This document shows positions 16,157 to 63,060 of a stretch of DNA of 64,000 nt, in pieces; within the stretch, counting starts at the first letter, position 1, and each line of letters opens with the position of its first letter. Under the pieces are notes generated by a model. That model was not told the DNA's origin, searched no databases, and saw only the letters and a list, made by a program, of their open reading frames with translations. Made by a program: the position numbers and the translations under genes. This stretch comes from Vulcanimicrobiota bacterium (lineage in GTDB: Bacteria > Vulcanimicrobiota > Vulcanimicrobiia > Vulcanimicrobiales > Vulcanimicrobiaceae): the NCBI GenBank assembly GCA_003151115.1, contig PLWS01000002.1, positions 744,001 to 808,000 of the forward strand, read 5' to 3'.

Positions 16157-17712
16157 AGTGTCCGCCAGCCTGGGTTCAGTTCCTTTGCCGCATCGGGGCC
16201 CTCGGAACCGGCCGCGTAATTCGGGAACGAGCGATCTTTGATCGACTGCCACACGTCGAGAATCGGCATGACGATCTCCCACGCGCGCTGGACCGCATCC
16301 CACCGCGTGAAGAGCGTCGCGTCCCCGCGCATCGCGTCGGCCAGTAAACGCTCGTATGCGGGCGAGGACTGAACGCCGAATCCCGTGCCGTAGTTGAAAT
16401 CCATCGTCACGCCGCGGATGTGGTTCTTCTGGCCTGGAACCTTGGCGTTGAAGCGAATCGAGACGCCCTCGTCGGGTTGGATCTTGATCACCAGAAGATT
16501 TTGCTCGATCGTGTCGCTCTTCTCGCCGAAGAGACGGTGCGGGATCGGGTTGAAGGTGATGGCGATCTCCGAAACCTTGCGCGCTAGGCGTTTTCCGCTG
16601 CGCAGAAAGAACGGAACGCCGGCCCAGCGCCAGCTATTGATGTAGAGTTTCAGCGCGGCATACGTTTCCGTATTCGACGCCGGACCCACGTCGGGTTCCG
16701 AACGATAACCCGCAACGTGCTCGCCGCCGATTGTGCCGGGACCGTACTGACCGCGGACCGACATGTCGAAGACGTGTTCGTGCGCCGGCGGCTCGATCGC
16801 TGAAAACACCTTGTATTTTTCGTTACGGATCGCGTCGGCATCCGAGCTCGCCGGCGGCTCCATCGCGACGAGCGCCAGCAGATTGAGAACGTGGTTCTGA
16901 ATCATGTCGCGCAAAGCGCCCGCGTTGTCGTAATACGCGCCGCGCGCTTCCACGCCGAGCGTTTCGGCGGACGTAATCTGCACCGACTGAATGTAGTTGC
17001 GGCTCCAAATCGGCTCGAAAATCGTGTTGGCGAACCGCAGCGCCATGATGTCTTGGACGGTCTCTTTGCCCAAATAATGGTCGATGCGATAAACTTGGCT
17101 CTCGCTGAAGACCCTTTCAACTTCAGTTTGCAGCGCGCGCGCCGACGCCAGATCCGTACCGAACGGCTTCTCGACGATGATCCGCGTCCATCCGTTAGGA
17201 TTGCCGGCCGGGTCCAGCCCCGCTTTTTTCAACTGCTCGATGATCTTCGGAAAGACCGATGGCGGCGTCGCGAGGTAGAAGAGGCGGTTATGCCCCGCTC
17301 CGAACTGTTTTTCGTAGTCTTCCAGGCGGCGTTTGAGTGCTTCGAAGTGCGATGTGTTGTTGAAGTCCGCGGTGATATAGCCGATCCGCTGCGCTAAATC
17401 GTCCCAGAGCGGTTCCTTGATCGCGTCGTTTCCCAGGTCTTGTTGGGCCGCTTGTTTGCAGTACTCGCGAAATTGCTCGTCGGTGTACGGCGTGCGGGCA
17501 AACCCGATCAGGCCGAAATTTATCGGCAAGATATCGTCCGCGCGCAAGCTGTAAATAGCGGGAATCAGCATACGCTTGAACAGATCGCCGCTGGCGCCGA
17601 AAAACACGATCGTGCAGGGGTCGGCTACGCGGTTGCTTTCGATGCCCTCGCGCAGCGGATTCGCTGCAACGTGCGCCGCACCATCGGTTTTCGGAACGGT
17701 CTTCGCCATCAA
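16153..17712 (-). CDS. zwf: Glucose-6-phosphate 1-dehydrogenase
   Basis: 519 residues. Oxidises glucose 6-phosphate to 6-phosphoglucono-lactone and makes NADPH. The Rossmann motif FFGASGDLFKRMLIPA lies near residue 37, IVEKPFGTDL is the conserved EKP block, and RIDHYLGKE is the substrate-binding active site. The C-terminal beta domain contains RSGKRLARK. The start overlaps the gnd stop by 4 bp (ATGA). A second ATG one codon later is an equally possible start. It belongs to the operon tkt, tal-pgi, gnd, zwf, opcA, pgl. Confidence 0.97.
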   Translation of the reverse strand: MMAKTVPKTDGAAHVAANPLREGIESNRVADPCTIVFFGASGDLFKRMLIPAIYSLRADDILPINFGLIGFARTPYTDEQFREYCKQAAQQDLGNDAIKEPLWDDLAQRIGYITADFNNTSHFEALKRRLEDYEKQFGAGHNRLFYLATPPSVFPKIIEQLKKAGLDPAGNPNGWTRIIVEKPFGTDLASARALQTEVERVFSESQVYRIDHYLGKETVQDIMALRFANTIFEPIWSRNYIQSVQITSAETLGVEARGAYYDNAGALRDMIQNHVLNLLALVAMEPPASSDADAIRNEKYKVFSAIEPPAHEHVFDMSVRGQYGPGTIGGEHVAGYRSEPDVGPASNTETYAALKLYINSWRWAGVPFFLRSGKRLARKVSEIAITFNPIPHRLFGEKSDTIEQNLLVIKIQPDEGVSIRFNAKVPGQKNHIRGVTMDFNYGTGFGVQSSPAYERLLADAMRGDATLFTRWDAVQRAWEIVMPILDVWQSIKDRSFPNYAAGSEGPDAAKELNPGWRTL

Positions 17713-18614
17713 GGCTTTTCGGATTTGATCGCGTGGCCGCCGAACTGATTGCGCAGCGCAGCGATCACCTTGGCGCTATACGACTCGTCTTGCCGGGATG
17801 CGAAACGCGCGAGAAGCGAAAGCGTGATCACGGGCGCCGGCACGTTCTCGTCGATCGCGGCTTGCACGGTCCAGCGTCCCTCGCCTGTGTCGTCGACCCA
17901 GCCGCGAACGTCTTTCAGATCGGGATCGGCCGCAAATGCGAGCACGGCCAAATCGAGCAGCCACGAGCGGATGACGCTGCCGAACCGCCAGATCTCCGCC
18001 AATTGCTTTAGATCAAACGGGAACTGCGACTTCCGCAGGATCTCGAATCCCTCGCCGTAGGCTTGCAGCAAACCGTACTCGATGCCGTTGTGGACCATTT
18101 TCGAGAAGTGTCCGGCGCCCGCCGGCCCGACGTGCGCGTATCCGCCTTTTGGGGCGAGCGTCAGAAAAATCGGTTCGCAGTACGCGACCGCACCCGAATC
18201 GCCGCCGACCATCAGGCAGTAGCCCTCTTTCAAGCCCCAGACGCCGCCACTCGTGCCGGCGTCGACGAGCGAGACGCCTTTGGCTTTGCAGCGCTCGTAC
18301 GCCGCCAGACCGTCTTGGTAGTTCGTATTACCGCCGTCGATAATGACGTCGCCCGACGCGAGCAATCCCAACAGCTCGTCGATCGTGTCGTCGGTGGGTT
18401 TCCCCGACGGCACCATCAGCCAAACCACGCGCGGAGTCTGCGTGAACTTCTTGACGAGATCCGCAAGCGAATTCGCACCCGTCGCACCGCCGCTCGCGCT
18501 CGTCTTAACGGCGTCGGCGCTTCGGTCGTACGCAATGACCGAATGGCCGCCCTCGATCAAGCGGGTCGTCATGTTCGCGCCCATGCGCCCCAGTCCGACC
18601 ATCCCTAATTGCAT
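17709..18614 (-). CDS. gnd: 6-phosphogluconate dehydrogenase, decarboxylating (short GndA/YqeC type)
   Basis: 301 residues, the size of the short, often NAD-preferring class, not the 470-residue NADP class. The N-terminal GLGRMGANMTTRLIEGGH is the nucleotide fold, followed by VWLMVPSGKPTDDTI, IIDGGNTNYQD and the substrate block DAGTSGGVWGLKEGYCLMVGG. The active-site helix is GAGHFSKMVHNGIEYG. It makes ribulose 5-phosphate and CO2, feeding rpe, tkt and tal. Its leader (18615-18794) contains long inverted repeats that could affect translation; a GAAAG purine block lies just outside the stem, about 9 bases before ATG. Confidence 0.95.
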   Translation of the reverse strand: MQLGMVGLGRMGANMTTRLIEGGHSVIAYDRSADAVKTSASGGATGANSLADLVKKFTQTPRVVWLMVPSGKPTDDTIDELLGLLASGDVIIDGGNTNYQDGLAAYERCKAKGVSLVDAGTSGGVWGLKEGYCLMVGGDSGAVAYCEPIFLTLAPKGGYAHVGPAGAGHFSKMVHNGIEYGLLQAYGEGFEILRKSQFPFDLKQLAEIWRFGSVIRSWLLDLAVLAFAADPDLKDVRGWVDDTGEGRWTVQAAIDENVPAPVITLSLLARFASRQDESYSAKVIAALRNQFGGHAIKSEKP

Positions 18615-18629
18615 GAGGCGCTATCTTTC

Positions 18630-18795
18630 AGATTCGGAGCCGGTATGTGCTGACCAGGAATGTGTGACATTTTTGGACCGGCCATGGATGGGCGCTTCAA
18701 AACTTTGTTTTTCCAAAAATGCACTCAAGCGGCGAAAAAACATGGACGTTTTTTTCGCCAGCGGTTCCGGGGCGGCACATACCGGCTCCGAATCT
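18630..18795. repeat. 166-bp element with perfect 21-bp terminal inverted repeats
   Basis: Bases 18630-18650 and 18775-18795 are exact reverse complements. Between them lies 124 bp that includes a second hairpin at 18731-18759 (GGCGAAAAAAC / GTTTTTTTCGCC). The element fills the gap between tal-pgi and gnd, and the right arm touches the tal-pgi stop codon. It could be a small non-autonomous mobile element or an RNA structure that separates expression of the two genes. No target-site duplication is visible. Confidence 0.75.
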
Positions 18796-21635
18796 CAAGT
18801 CTTCGCCGTTAGGGAGTCGTCGATCAGTGCGTTCAGAGCCGCGAGGCCGCGATCGACGTCGCCTTTCAGATGCACGCGCATACCGCGGCGGTCGCGTTTG
18901 TCGAGCGACTGCAGATCGCCGAGTGCTTGCGCCGCGATTAGCGTGCGGAAGGTGATGCCCATGCCCGGGATCGGCATGTCGTCGGGCGAGTCGGCCGTGA
19001 TCTGCACGAAGACGCCCGTGTCGGGGCCGCCTTTGTGTTCCTGTCCGGTCGAGTGGAGAAAGCGCGGTCCGAAGCCGACGGTCGTGGCGCACTTGCGCGC
19101 ATCGCGAACTTTGACCCGCATCTCTTCGAGCAAAGCGGCGTGCTTGTCGTTGCGCGCGATGTAGGCGCAGAACGCGACATAGTCGCCCGCGACGACTTGT
19201 CCGAAGACGCCGGCGAGCGCCGCGGCCGGATCGTGCGCGTGGATTCCCTCGCTGCCTGACAGGAACGAAATGTCCATCACGTCGTCAGAAACGGCCGGCG
19301 TAGGCTCGTCGAATTTTCCCGTGCTCGCAAACTGTTTGAGTAGCGCCTTGGTGTTGTCTTTGGATTCTTGCACGTTGGGCTGGTCGAACGCGTCGATCTG
19401 CAAGATCGAGCCCGCCGCGGCCACTGCGACTTCCCACGAATAGAACTGCTCGCCGATGTCGTAGGCATCGTTCATCGCCAGCCTGATGATGGGATGGCCG
19501 GCAGATTCGAGCGCTTGCAATTTGTCGGCGATATCCTTCGGCTCGTCCGGCAGACCGGCGCCGACGTAGACGAAAACGCGATCGTTCCCGTAATCCGAAG
19601 GTGCGCCCAGCGGCTCGCCTTCTACGGGCAGAATGCCCTTGCCCATTTTTCCGGTCGATTCGGCGACGAGCTGTTCCGCCCACGCGCCGAACGCGCGCAC
19701 CGACGGATGCGTGACGATCGTGAGCTTGTCGCGGCCTGCGGTTGCCAGGCCGCCGATTGCGGCGCCGAAGCGCGCGCCCGGCGCATCCTTCGCGGCTACC
19801 GTTTTATCATTCGCGTGCAGCGCGCCAAGGCTGCGATCCAAAAGCAGATTGATGTTGTAGCCGGCCAGTGCTGCGGGCAGCATGCCGAAAAAGGAGAGCG
19901 CGGAATAGCGCCCGCCGATATTCGGATCGTTGAGGAAGCACGATCTGAAGCCTTGCGCTTTCGATTCGGCCTCGAGTTGCGTGCCCTCGTCGGTGATTGC
20001 CACGAAGTGACGGCCGCATTTGCCCGATCCGGCGACTTTCGTTACTCGTTCGCAGAAGAAGCGGTAGAACGCATCGGGCTCGGTCGTCGTGCCGCTCTTG
20101 CTCGCAACGATGAAAAGCGTCGAACTGAGATCGATCGCCGCCTCGAGCTCCCGGATCTGCTCCGGATCGGTGGAGTCGAGCACGTGCAGCGCCGGGTAAC
20201 CGTCGGTTTTTCCAAACGTCGCGCGCATGATATCCGGCGCGAGCGAGCTCCCGCCCATCCCAAGGACGACCACGTCGGTAAACTCCGCGGCGATCTCCTT
20301 GGCGAAGCTTTGCAGGTTCGAAACGTTCTCGATCATGTGTTCGGGAACGTCGAGCCATCCCAGAGCATGTTTGATGATCTCAGCGTGGTGAGGATCGTTG
20401 GACCAAAGGGTCGGGTCTTTTGCCCAGAGTTTTTTCAGGAAGTCGCGGTCGGTCAAAGTTTTCAGGGTGGCGTCGTAAGCGCTTTGGCCTTCGCCCAGCG
20501 ACAACGCGACGCGTTCCGATCCCGAACTGAGCTGTTTCTGTTTGTAGACGATTGCGCCCAGGAGGCCCGCAAACGAGTCGCTGAACGCGCTAACACCCTC
20601 GACCTGCAACTGGTAGGTGACGTCAAAGAGCGAGATGCCGTTGGCCGCCAGGCTCTTGAGCGTTTCGCGCGCCTCGTCCACGCCTTGCAAGATCGTGTCC
20701 GCCACGACGTTGCCGTGATCCAGCAGCGCCTCGAGGGTTTGCGGCGGCATCGTGTTGACGGTATTGCGCGCGACCACCGGCTCGACGTACATCAAATCCG
20801 GATACTTCGGATTTTTCGTCGACGTCGACGCCCACAGCGGACGCTGTTCGGAGCCACCCTTGGCTTTGAGCGGCGCCCATTCTTCGGATTCGAAAATCTC
20901 CAGATATTTCTGGTAGGCGAGCTTGAGGTTGGCGACGCCCGTCTTGCCGAGCAATGCTTCCAATTGCGTCTCGCCTTTATCGATGCGCGCTTGCAGCAGT
21001 TTGTCGATCAGGGTGTCGATGCGGCTGACGAAAATGCTGTTAACCGAACGCTGCTTGTCGATCGGCAGGCCCTTTTTTACCCGGCGCTGCAGCCCGCGCA
21101 CGTAAGCGCGCGCCGTCTTTTCGTACATCTCGATCGCGAAGATGAGCGTGACGTTGATGTTGATGCCTTCGGCCACGCACTCTTCGATCGCGGGGACGCC
21201 CTCGTTGGTACCGGGGATCTTGACCATGAGGTTCGGGCGGTCGATCCGCTTCCAAAGTTCTTTTGCCATCGAGACGGTTGCTTTAGTGTCGTGCGCGATC
21301 AGCGGCGAAACCTCGATGCTCACGAAGCCGTCGTTCCCGCCGGAGCCGTCGTAGACGGGCCGGAAGAGATCGCACGCGTTACAAATATCCTCGACTGCGA
21401 GATCCCAGAACAAGGCGCTCGCGTCGCGCTGCTTTCCGATCAGCGACCGCAACTGATCGTCGTAATCGTTGCCGCTGCCGATGGCCTTTTCGAAGATCGT
21501 CGGATTGGAAGTCATCCCGCGCAGGCCTTTGTCGATGAGACCCTGTAGCTCGCCCGACGCGAACATTCCGCGGCGGAGATTGTCGAGCCAGACGCTTTGT
21601 CCGGCCGCGAGCAGTTGTGACAATTGGTTACTCAT
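18795..21635 (-). CDS. Bifunctional transaldolase / glucose-6-phosphate isomerase
   Basis: 946 residues in one frame. The N-terminal ~370 residues are transaldolase: MTSNPTIFEKAIGSGNDYDD, NLMVKIPGTNEGVPAIEECV with the Schiff-base lysine, GININVTLIFAIEMY and NTMPPQTLEALLDHG. The rest is a phosphoglucose isomerase: VVVLGMGGSSLAPDIMRATF, SKSGTTTEPDAFYRFF, GRYSALSFFGMLPAALAGYN and the C-terminal glutamate region DAYDIGEQFYSWEVAVAAAG. The fusion links recycling of fructose 6-phosphate back to glucose 6-phosphate within the oxidative pentose phosphate cycle. It lies 7 bp after tkt and upstream of gnd. Confidence 0.95.
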   Translation of the reverse strand: MSNQLSQLLAAGQSVWLDNLRRGMFASGELQGLIDKGLRGMTSNPTIFEKAIGSGNDYDDQLRSLIGKQRDASALFWDLAVEDICNACDLFRPVYDGSGGNDGFVSIEVSPLIAHDTKATVSMAKELWKRIDRPNLMVKIPGTNEGVPAIEECVAEGININVTLIFAIEMYEKTARAYVRGLQRRVKKGLPIDKQRSVNSIFVSRIDTLIDKLLQARIDKGETQLEALLGKTGVANLKLAYQKYLEIFESEEWAPLKAKGGSEQRPLWASTSTKNPKYPDLMYVEPVVARNTVNTMPPQTLEALLDHGNVVADTILQGVDEARETLKSLAANGISLFDVTYQLQVEGVSAFSDSFAGLLGAIVYKQKQLSSGSERVALSLGEGQSAYDATLKTLTDRDFLKKLWAKDPTLWSNDPHHAEIIKHALGWLDVPEHMIENVSNLQSFAKEIAAEFTDVVVLGMGGSSLAPDIMRATFGKTDGYPALHVLDSTDPEQIRELEAAIDLSSTLFIVASKSGTTTEPDAFYRFFCERVTKVAGSGKCGRHFVAITDEGTQLEAESKAQGFRSCFLNDPNIGGRYSALSFFGMLPAALAGYNINLLLDRSLGALHANDKTVAAKDAPGARFGAAIGGLATAGRDKLTIVTHPSVRAFGAWAEQLVAESTGKMGKGILPVEGEPLGAPSDYGNDRVFVYVGAGLPDEPKDIADKLQALESAGHPIIRLAMNDAYDIGEQFYSWEVAVAAAGSILQIDAFDQPNVQESKDNTKALLKQFASTGKFDEPTPAVSDDVMDISFLSGSEGIHAHDPAAALAGVFGQVVAGDYVAFCAYIARNDKHAALLEEMRVKVRDARKCATTVGFGPRFLHSTGQEHKGGPDTGVFVQITADSPDDMPIPGMGITFRTLIAAQALGDLQSLDKRDRRGMRVHLKGDVDRGLAALNALIDDSLTAKT

Positions 21636-24571: not shown

Positions 24572-24642
24572 CGGCTCTTGTAGGTAACCTAACCGCCGGA
24601 GCTATTCTACCAGATACCGGAAGCGTTGCAACCCACCCGGGT

Positions 24643-24711
24643 TGGAGGCGACGGGAATCGAACCCGCTCGACCAAACTGGCGGTTAGGTCTCTCTGCACA
24701 AGAGCGCCCCC
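24643..24711 (-). other. tRNA/tmRNA-like element (T-arm plus acceptor stem), possible ssrA remnant
   Basis: Read on the minus strand, GGGGGCG at the 5' side pairs with CGCCTCC at the 3' side (7 bp, one G-T), followed by a discriminator A. A perfect T-arm GCGGG-TTCGATT-CCCGT joins directly to the acceptor. The middle is not a normal D-arm plus anticodon arm: it folds as CTCT/AGAG and GACC/GGTC hairpins. GGGGGCG...CGCCTCCA ends are typical of tmRNA, but no mRNA-like domain fits here. The 3' CCA is not encoded. Best read as a tmRNA-derived fragment or a degenerate tRNA. Confidence 0.4.
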
Positions 24712-62914: not shown

Positions 62915-62944
62915 TTGCGCAAGCCGCCCGTCCTCTGTTATGAT
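62915..62944 (+). promoter_or_regulatory. Promoter for rplJ-rplL
   Basis: TTGCGC (62915-62920), 18-bp spacer, TATGAT (62939-62944). It is needed because the reversed carbonic anhydrase gene separates rplJ from rplA. Confidence 0.7.
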
Positions 62945-62951
62945 GGCCGAC

Positions 62952-63060
62952 GGCTCCGAAGACCGCACCTGGCCTAGGCCTTAATTTGGTGCAGAGGACG
63001 CACTCGAAGACTTTTGTGCGCGCCCTCCGGACGGATGGAGCGCGTTTTGTTTTTTTTTGA
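62952..63060 (+). promoter_or_regulatory. L10 leader with terminator-like hairpin before rplJ
   Basis: The ~110-nt leader holds GCACC/GGTGC pairing and ends in a GC hairpin at 63019-63044 (CGCG..CTCC / GGAG.CGCG) followed by a T-run at 63045-63058, only a few bases from the GAGGGA ribosome-binding site. This fits the L10(L12)4-controlled leader known from many bacteria; the hairpin with T-run suggests transcription attenuation. Confidence 0.75.

Follow-up and report, generated by a model that had tools for sequence, protein, structure and literature searches.

What is the long perfect inverted repeat that fills the junction between tal-pgi and gnd, and does it act on the operon in which it lies? 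In the window, by which we mean the whole 64-kb stretch of DNA analysed, the tal-pgi fusion gene (18795..21635) and gnd (17709..18614) are both encoded on the minus strand, and the gap from the stop codon of the former to the start of the latter is filled by an element whose arms, at 18630-18650 and 18775-18795, are exact reverse complements over 21 bp (plus strand AGATTCGGAGCCGGTATGTGC and GCACATACCGGCTCCGAATCT, respectively). The right arm starts inside the tal-pgi stop codon (18795-18797), and the gnd ATG is 15 nt from the end of the left arm. A preliminary description of this DNA had reported both the perfect repeat and its placement, and both were confirmed. The repeat bounds a discrete element and is the longest perfect one in the window at spacings up to 300 nt; it is also beyond chance, as the longest inverted repeat in each of 200 first-order Markov windows averaged 12.7 bp and never exceeded 16 bp. 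Inward of the arms, positions 18651..18660 (TGACCAGGAA) pair with 18765..18774 (TTCCGGGGCG) with two mismatches, and with this imperfect continuation the outer helix comprises 31 positions. Compared with shuffled sequences, the single-strand fold of the element has a z of −6.7 to −8 as RNA and −10.6 as DNA. Neither an intrinsic terminator (no GC-rich hairpin with a T-tract in 18400-19000) nor a sigma-70 promoter near the element was found. Elsewhere in the window, two sub-threshold Rfam matches were seen, one tmRNA-like (24640-24711, minus strand, 28.2 bits vs. 47, E = 1.6e-7, with no call by ARAGORN) and one a weak match to the ribosomal protein L10 leader (62938-63060, plus strand, 30.8 bits vs. 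44).

A genome-wide search for the arm had been proposed as a check on the idea that the element is a dispersed repeat, and its outcome divides the element in two. Besides the two arms themselves, a 20-mer of the arm, searched with up to three mismatches across the 2.56-Mb genome, gave only two unrelated three-mismatch hits. By contrast, the interior, a 104-nt core at 18661..18764 (plus strand), recurs at six other places in the genome with 76-88% identity, and models added two further divergent places (C6:475325-475467 and, in the atpG-atpD spacer, C5:152099-152252), bringing the copies in the genome of the window (G000) to eight or nine. A covariance model built from seven copies found matches in 30 of the 61 genomes of the same family, which carry from 0 to 35 copies each, and a broader model, applied to 149 genomes of the phylum, was positive in 71, only two of which lie outside this family. 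No exact match to a core pattern was found in viral contigs. The element is thus one copy of a structured repeat family of about 100 nt, largely confined to one family of soil bacteria within Candidatus Eremiobacterota.

Some members are unusual in form or setting. The copy in the atpG-atpD spacer (L035:4019-4134, on G000:C5) lies in the ATP synthase operon and is a divergent member whose outer stem is GC-rich; it lacks hairpin 2 in G062 and is absent in G058 and G063. Two copies in G045 (L303:1497-1625 and 1675-1799) lie in opposite orientation about 50 nt apart, and G033 has a wider inverted pair (L301). A second, commoner repeat, with the motif TCATCCTGAGC...TCGAAGGAC / CTTCGACAGGCTCAGGATGACA, has dozens of matches in every genome of the genus; it occurs at the L031 and L034 flanks and in the L251 spacer (the gnd site of G025), and fills some of the junctions that are without the element described here.

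The core folds into a long helix plus two hairpins whose loops are of (A)NGGA type, rather than around the one internal hairpin first described. In the gnd-site copy, read on the plus strand, the internal helix P2 pairs 18662..18677 with 18711..18725, hairpin 1 occupies 18678..18694 (loop region AUGGAU at 18684-18689), and a CAAG junction at 18726..18729 leads into hairpin 2 at 18729..18762 (loop AUGGAC at 18742-18747). Loops of other copies vary (e.g., AGGAU and CGAU). Among 100 aligned copies, hairpin 1 contains GGA in 93 and hairpin 2 in 83, and CGA replaces GGA in hairpin 2 of several lineages. Covariation analysis in relatives, which had also been suggested at the outset, strongly supports the core pairs. 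Changes on both sides were already seen at 29 of 47 pairs in the seven-copy alignment; among the 100 copies, 94.8% of cells pair and 46 of the 47 pairs have double-sided changes. The covariation score over the 100 copies is 0.865, vs. 0.214 when shuffled and at most 0.146 with slid partners, and although this alignment was fitted to the covariance model, both controls fall far below it.

No Rfam family matches the element above threshold. The nearest, TwoAYGGAY (RF01731), scores 38.2 bits against the gnd-site copy, below its gathering threshold of 43, on the plus strand and therefore antisense to the operon; this match was seen in a narrow Rfam scan and was missed by a whole-window scan owing to its filters. 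It is also the best TwoAYGGAY score in the genome, and the 43-bit cut-off is exceeded in none of the 61 genomes of the family. The likeness is nonetheless considerable. TwoAYGGAY elements have two hairpins with AYGGAY-type loops inside an outer stem that is described as poorly conserved (PMC4333381), and here, too, we find two such hairpins, backed by covariation, within an outer stem poorly conserved in sequence. The AAUG, CAAG and CGGUU positions match those of the gnd-site copy, the CAAG junction is kept in the Rfam consensus, and the best TwoAYGGAY matches in the genome are mostly copies of the present family. In contrast to TwoAYGGAY, hairpin 1 is carried on an additional long helix that has an A/T-rich side arm. 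The element behaves as a TwoAYGGAY element does and is probably distantly related.

The outer arms behave quite differently from the core. Over 90 copies, the outer stem has a mean length of 29 bp and a maximum of 50. The clear copies in the window's genome have a recognisable core, while their outer 20-35 bp are unrelated in sequence and yet almost perfectly paired. Likewise, the twenty copies read in the genome with 35 copies have near-identical cores within subfamilies and stems of 35-50 bp of differing sequence, and at best the inner 10-14 bp of the arms are shared between copies. In two species of that genome's genus, orthologous cores are 99-100% identical and both arms are altered in concert. 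In the genus of the window, too, species differ at the gnd site in both arms simultaneously. Pairs of copies with such concerted arms are L082/L107, which has a 4-nt indel in both arms, L078/L179 and L030/L093. It is because both arms change together that they stay identical. The absence of the drift expected of an old structure, noted in the preliminary description, is accordingly correct as a description of the arms but misleads as to their age, as the element at this site is common to two other species.

Two sites indicate where arm sequence may come from. At the L088 site of G061, the 3' end of a pyrK-like gene (...FWAHELRW*) forms one arm and its inverted copy the other, the two agreeing at 45 of 49 positions in an alignment that has a 5-nt gap; the element-free sites of G000 and G058 have the gene end and no inverted copy. 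At the nuoD-nuoE site of G062, the end of nuoD, stop codon included, reappears in inverted form as the far arm. Because these arms copy the ends of neighbouring genes, the arms are apparently made from flanking DNA, copied from immediately beside the core. We considered a rule of polarity in which the 3' arm is always ancestral; it fits five cases, yet L078 and similar copies contradict it, the 5' arm of L078 overlapping the adjacent gene, and inversion of the core undermines it further. Two related arrangements were seen. L253, at the L029 site of G062, is a partial element with hairpin 2 only, whose left flank repeats the 3' end of the core in inverted orientation, likely a product of template switching. 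In L182 and L190 (G041, contigs C118 and C12), the element has the same flank to its left and right in inverted orientation and its arms exceed 100 nt; these are either very long arms or an assembly artefact arising from the hairpin.

The history of individual copies was followed by tracing eight sites of G000 in six other species of the genus, with a tree built from the flanks. Cores from the same site usually group in a clade of their own, and are therefore the same element by descent. Even so, their orientation is not fixed. At the gnd site the core is reversed in G049 relative to G000 and G062, with unchanged neighbours and with cores that are 94-96% identical and form one clade. The core is likewise reversed between G061 and G062 at the L033 site (97% identical), and is inverted in G049 at the atpG-atpD site and in G025 at the L030 site; the L088 site provides a fifth case (G049 vs. 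G061). One event each on the tree suffices for the gnd, L033 and atp inversions. Arms of 40 bp can confuse short-read assemblies, and some inversions in fragmented genomes (e.g., L072/L102) may be artefacts.

Copies are also gained and lost. Near-identical cores occur at different sites (99% for L097/L098, 98% for L033/L281), which shows movement. The gnd-site element, common to G000 and two other species, is absent in G058, G025, G061, G006, G041 and others. Element-free sites are either tight junctions (G058, G063) or have one arm left (G061 at gnd and L029; G041 for two G006 copies), and fragments of the core remain at L253, L256 and L263. None of the element-free sites that were read showed an obvious direct duplication of the target. 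We considered the single-arm sites of G061 as targets awaiting insertion, but the species tree makes loss likelier at the gnd site, where the outer part of the 3' arm (18775..18795) stands alone, and for some of the one-arm sites deletion is a better account than a state before insertion.

Template switching could link these observations. Switching between the arms of an inverted repeat homogenises the arms and inverts the spacer (PMC8604942), and its reverse-complement copying has been put forward as a way in which perfect RNA stems arise and are kept (PMC8794818). Both arm homogenisation and spacer inversion are seen here at orthologous sites. In this mechanism, the core hairpin would provoke template switching during DNA replication, and the switching would copy flanking DNA to the other side of the core, correct mismatches between the arms, and flip the core. 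The perfect arms, their concerted changes, the captured gene ends and the inversions would then be accounted for in one step. From these footprints, we infer that template switching operates at the elements.

What the core itself does is less certain. Orthologous cores of close species are mostly 90-97% identical, compared with 86-89% for the adjacent DNA, while arms and spacers hardly align, which suggests that the core is under constraint in place. In the outer stems, read on the core-sense strand, G-U pairs outnumber A-C pairs by 79 to 14 (p = 4e-12), by 39 to 9 outside the modelled stretch, and by 23 to 3 in copies antisense to their neighbours, these counts pooling related copies that are not independent. 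The excess points to folding of the core-sense strand. Inside the core, G-U pairs are rare, hardly above A-C, and without excess in the hairpins, making the core less RNA-like than expected; both RNA and single-stranded DNA readings therefore remain. With less certainty than for the arms, it can be suggested that the core-sense strand works as a folded single strand, either RNA or a single-stranded DNA mobile intermediate, in which a protein might recognise the paired (A)NGGA loops. Such a function would be independent of the direction of the neighbouring gene, with each single copy dispensable. Taken together, we consider it rather probable that the locus holds one member of a structured repeat family with template-switched arms, core flips and a folded-strand function, in which no individual copy is essential.

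The alternative that survives best is that the element acts at the DNA level only. Core-sense single-stranded DNA would be the substrate of a hairpin-recognising transposase or recombinase, as for IS200/IS605-derived or REP elements, and the fold would be selected for mobility alone. The mobility of the copies, the stability of the DNA fold, the mostly Watson-Crick pairs of the core and a strand polarity independent of the direction of transcription would all be expected. However, the site-specific clades and the slow evolution of the core at orthologous sites suggest selection in place, and we regard this alternative as unlikely, if the most serious of those considered.

Somewhat more doubtful is the possibility that the element is a CsrA/RsmE-binding RNA, in which each pair of (A)NGGA hairpins would hold a single CsrA dimer and all copies would jointly form a sponge. 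A CsrA-binding role has been proposed for TwoAYGGAY (PMC4333381), and loops such as ACAUGGACGU and ACAGGAUGU fit the published recognition consensus C-A(N)GGAN-G (PMC4005645). The frequency of GGA in both hairpins is consistent with this role, and the window's genome encodes CsrA (E = 3e-26). However, elements are present in 35 of 50 CsrA-positive and 8 of 11 CsrA-negative genomes, although incompleteness may explain part of the latter, and the lack of preferential co-occurrence weakens the idea. Two genomes of the same genus in which CsrA was undetected, G009 (97% complete) and G043, retain elements, and the CGA loops of hairpin 2 in several lineages also argue against it. The elements resemble CsrB/RsmZ-type small RNAs in having hairpins with (A)NGGA loops, but differ from them in having two sites per element and many genomic copies, in the lack of co-occurrence with CsrA, and in being known as DNA sequence only. 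CsrA binding is therefore a candidate role only.

The preliminary description had offered two further readings, a MITE and a post-transcriptional switch of gnd-zwf-opcA-pgl, and both now appear improbable. As a classical MITE, the element would be a non-autonomous transposon with the 21-bp arms as terminal inverted repeats recognised by a transposase. One part of this holds, since the element is a dispersed, mobile, multicopy repeat with related copies elsewhere in the genome, with presence/absence differences between species, as many as 35 copies in one genome and the near-identical cores at different sites mentioned above. The other part does not: terminal inverted repeats common to the copies were not found, the repeated unit being the interior. 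Because the arm is unique and the interior is shared and conserved, a classical MITE with shared terminal inverted repeats is ruled out, and arms that change in concert and can hold inverted copies of neighbouring codons are equally at odds with one. A modified version, in which a transposase acts on the core hairpins, would rescue the reading. Bacterial MITEs and REP/ERIC-type repeats are likewise short, dispersed, structured and intergenic, often lying between codirectional genes; in contrast, their conserved signature is the stem or terminal repeats, whereas here the stem is locus-specific and the interior conserved.

A cis-acting role at the 3' end or in the leader of the operon mRNA, be it as terminator, stabiliser or gnd switch, seems just as improbable. 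The end of the stem lies close to the gnd start, and copies commonly sit just past stop codons; of 76 such copies, 34 lie between convergent, 39 between codirectional and three between apparently divergent genes by a heuristic gene caller, the divergent L030 and L093 looking codirectional by eye. However, orientation relative to the neighbouring gene is variable (15 sense, 24 antisense), which makes a direct role in the gnd leader unlikely. The RNA-like fold at gnd is on the plus strand, opposite to the operon, in both G000 and G062, the core is inverted at this and other orthologous sites, and there is no T-tract. Nor is the element conserved upstream of gnd, as several close relatives keep the tal-pgi/gnd junction without it (spacers of 6-35 nt). 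Insertion into the loop of a pre-existing long hairpin can be dismissed, as no comparable other hairpin is present in the window and element-free orthologous sites have at most one arm.

Returning to the reading we prefer, a repeat family with template-switched arms, the novelty lies in how the arms behave and in the inverted cores, neither of which has been described for TwoAYGGAY in the literature that we surveyed. Known template-switch quasipalindromes are alike in their perfect arms, concerted two-arm changes, spacer inversion and reverse-complement-copied stems (PMC8794818, PMC8604942), but they have short arms, concern miRNA or rRNA stems and mostly enclose loops of a few nucleotides, whereas the long arms in the present family are seeded, at many places in the genome, by a conserved core of 104 nt. 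A TwoAYGGAY-like motif that behaves as a repeat of flipping orientation bears on the filing of that motif as a cis-regulator in Rfam. It also carries a warning, in that covariation in an outer stem can stem from arm correction at the DNA level as well as from selection on RNA.

More tentatively, and as a proposal slightly more doubtful than probable, these elements may represent a dispersed class in which only the conserved structured core is carried, while the long perfect arms are built from host sequence by template switching, which would also flip the core. If true, such a class would be marked by an interior that is conserved and ends that are made on the spot, the reverse of what defines a transposon. 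The origin and upkeep of long perfect RNA stems is an open question, and the proposal of template switching has so far drawn on isolated examples from eukaryotes and from rRNA. In the present bacterial family, dozens of mutually independent stems enclose the same core, and, with orthologous sites before and after, changes in both arms, captured gene ends and inverted cores, the process is therefore measurable.
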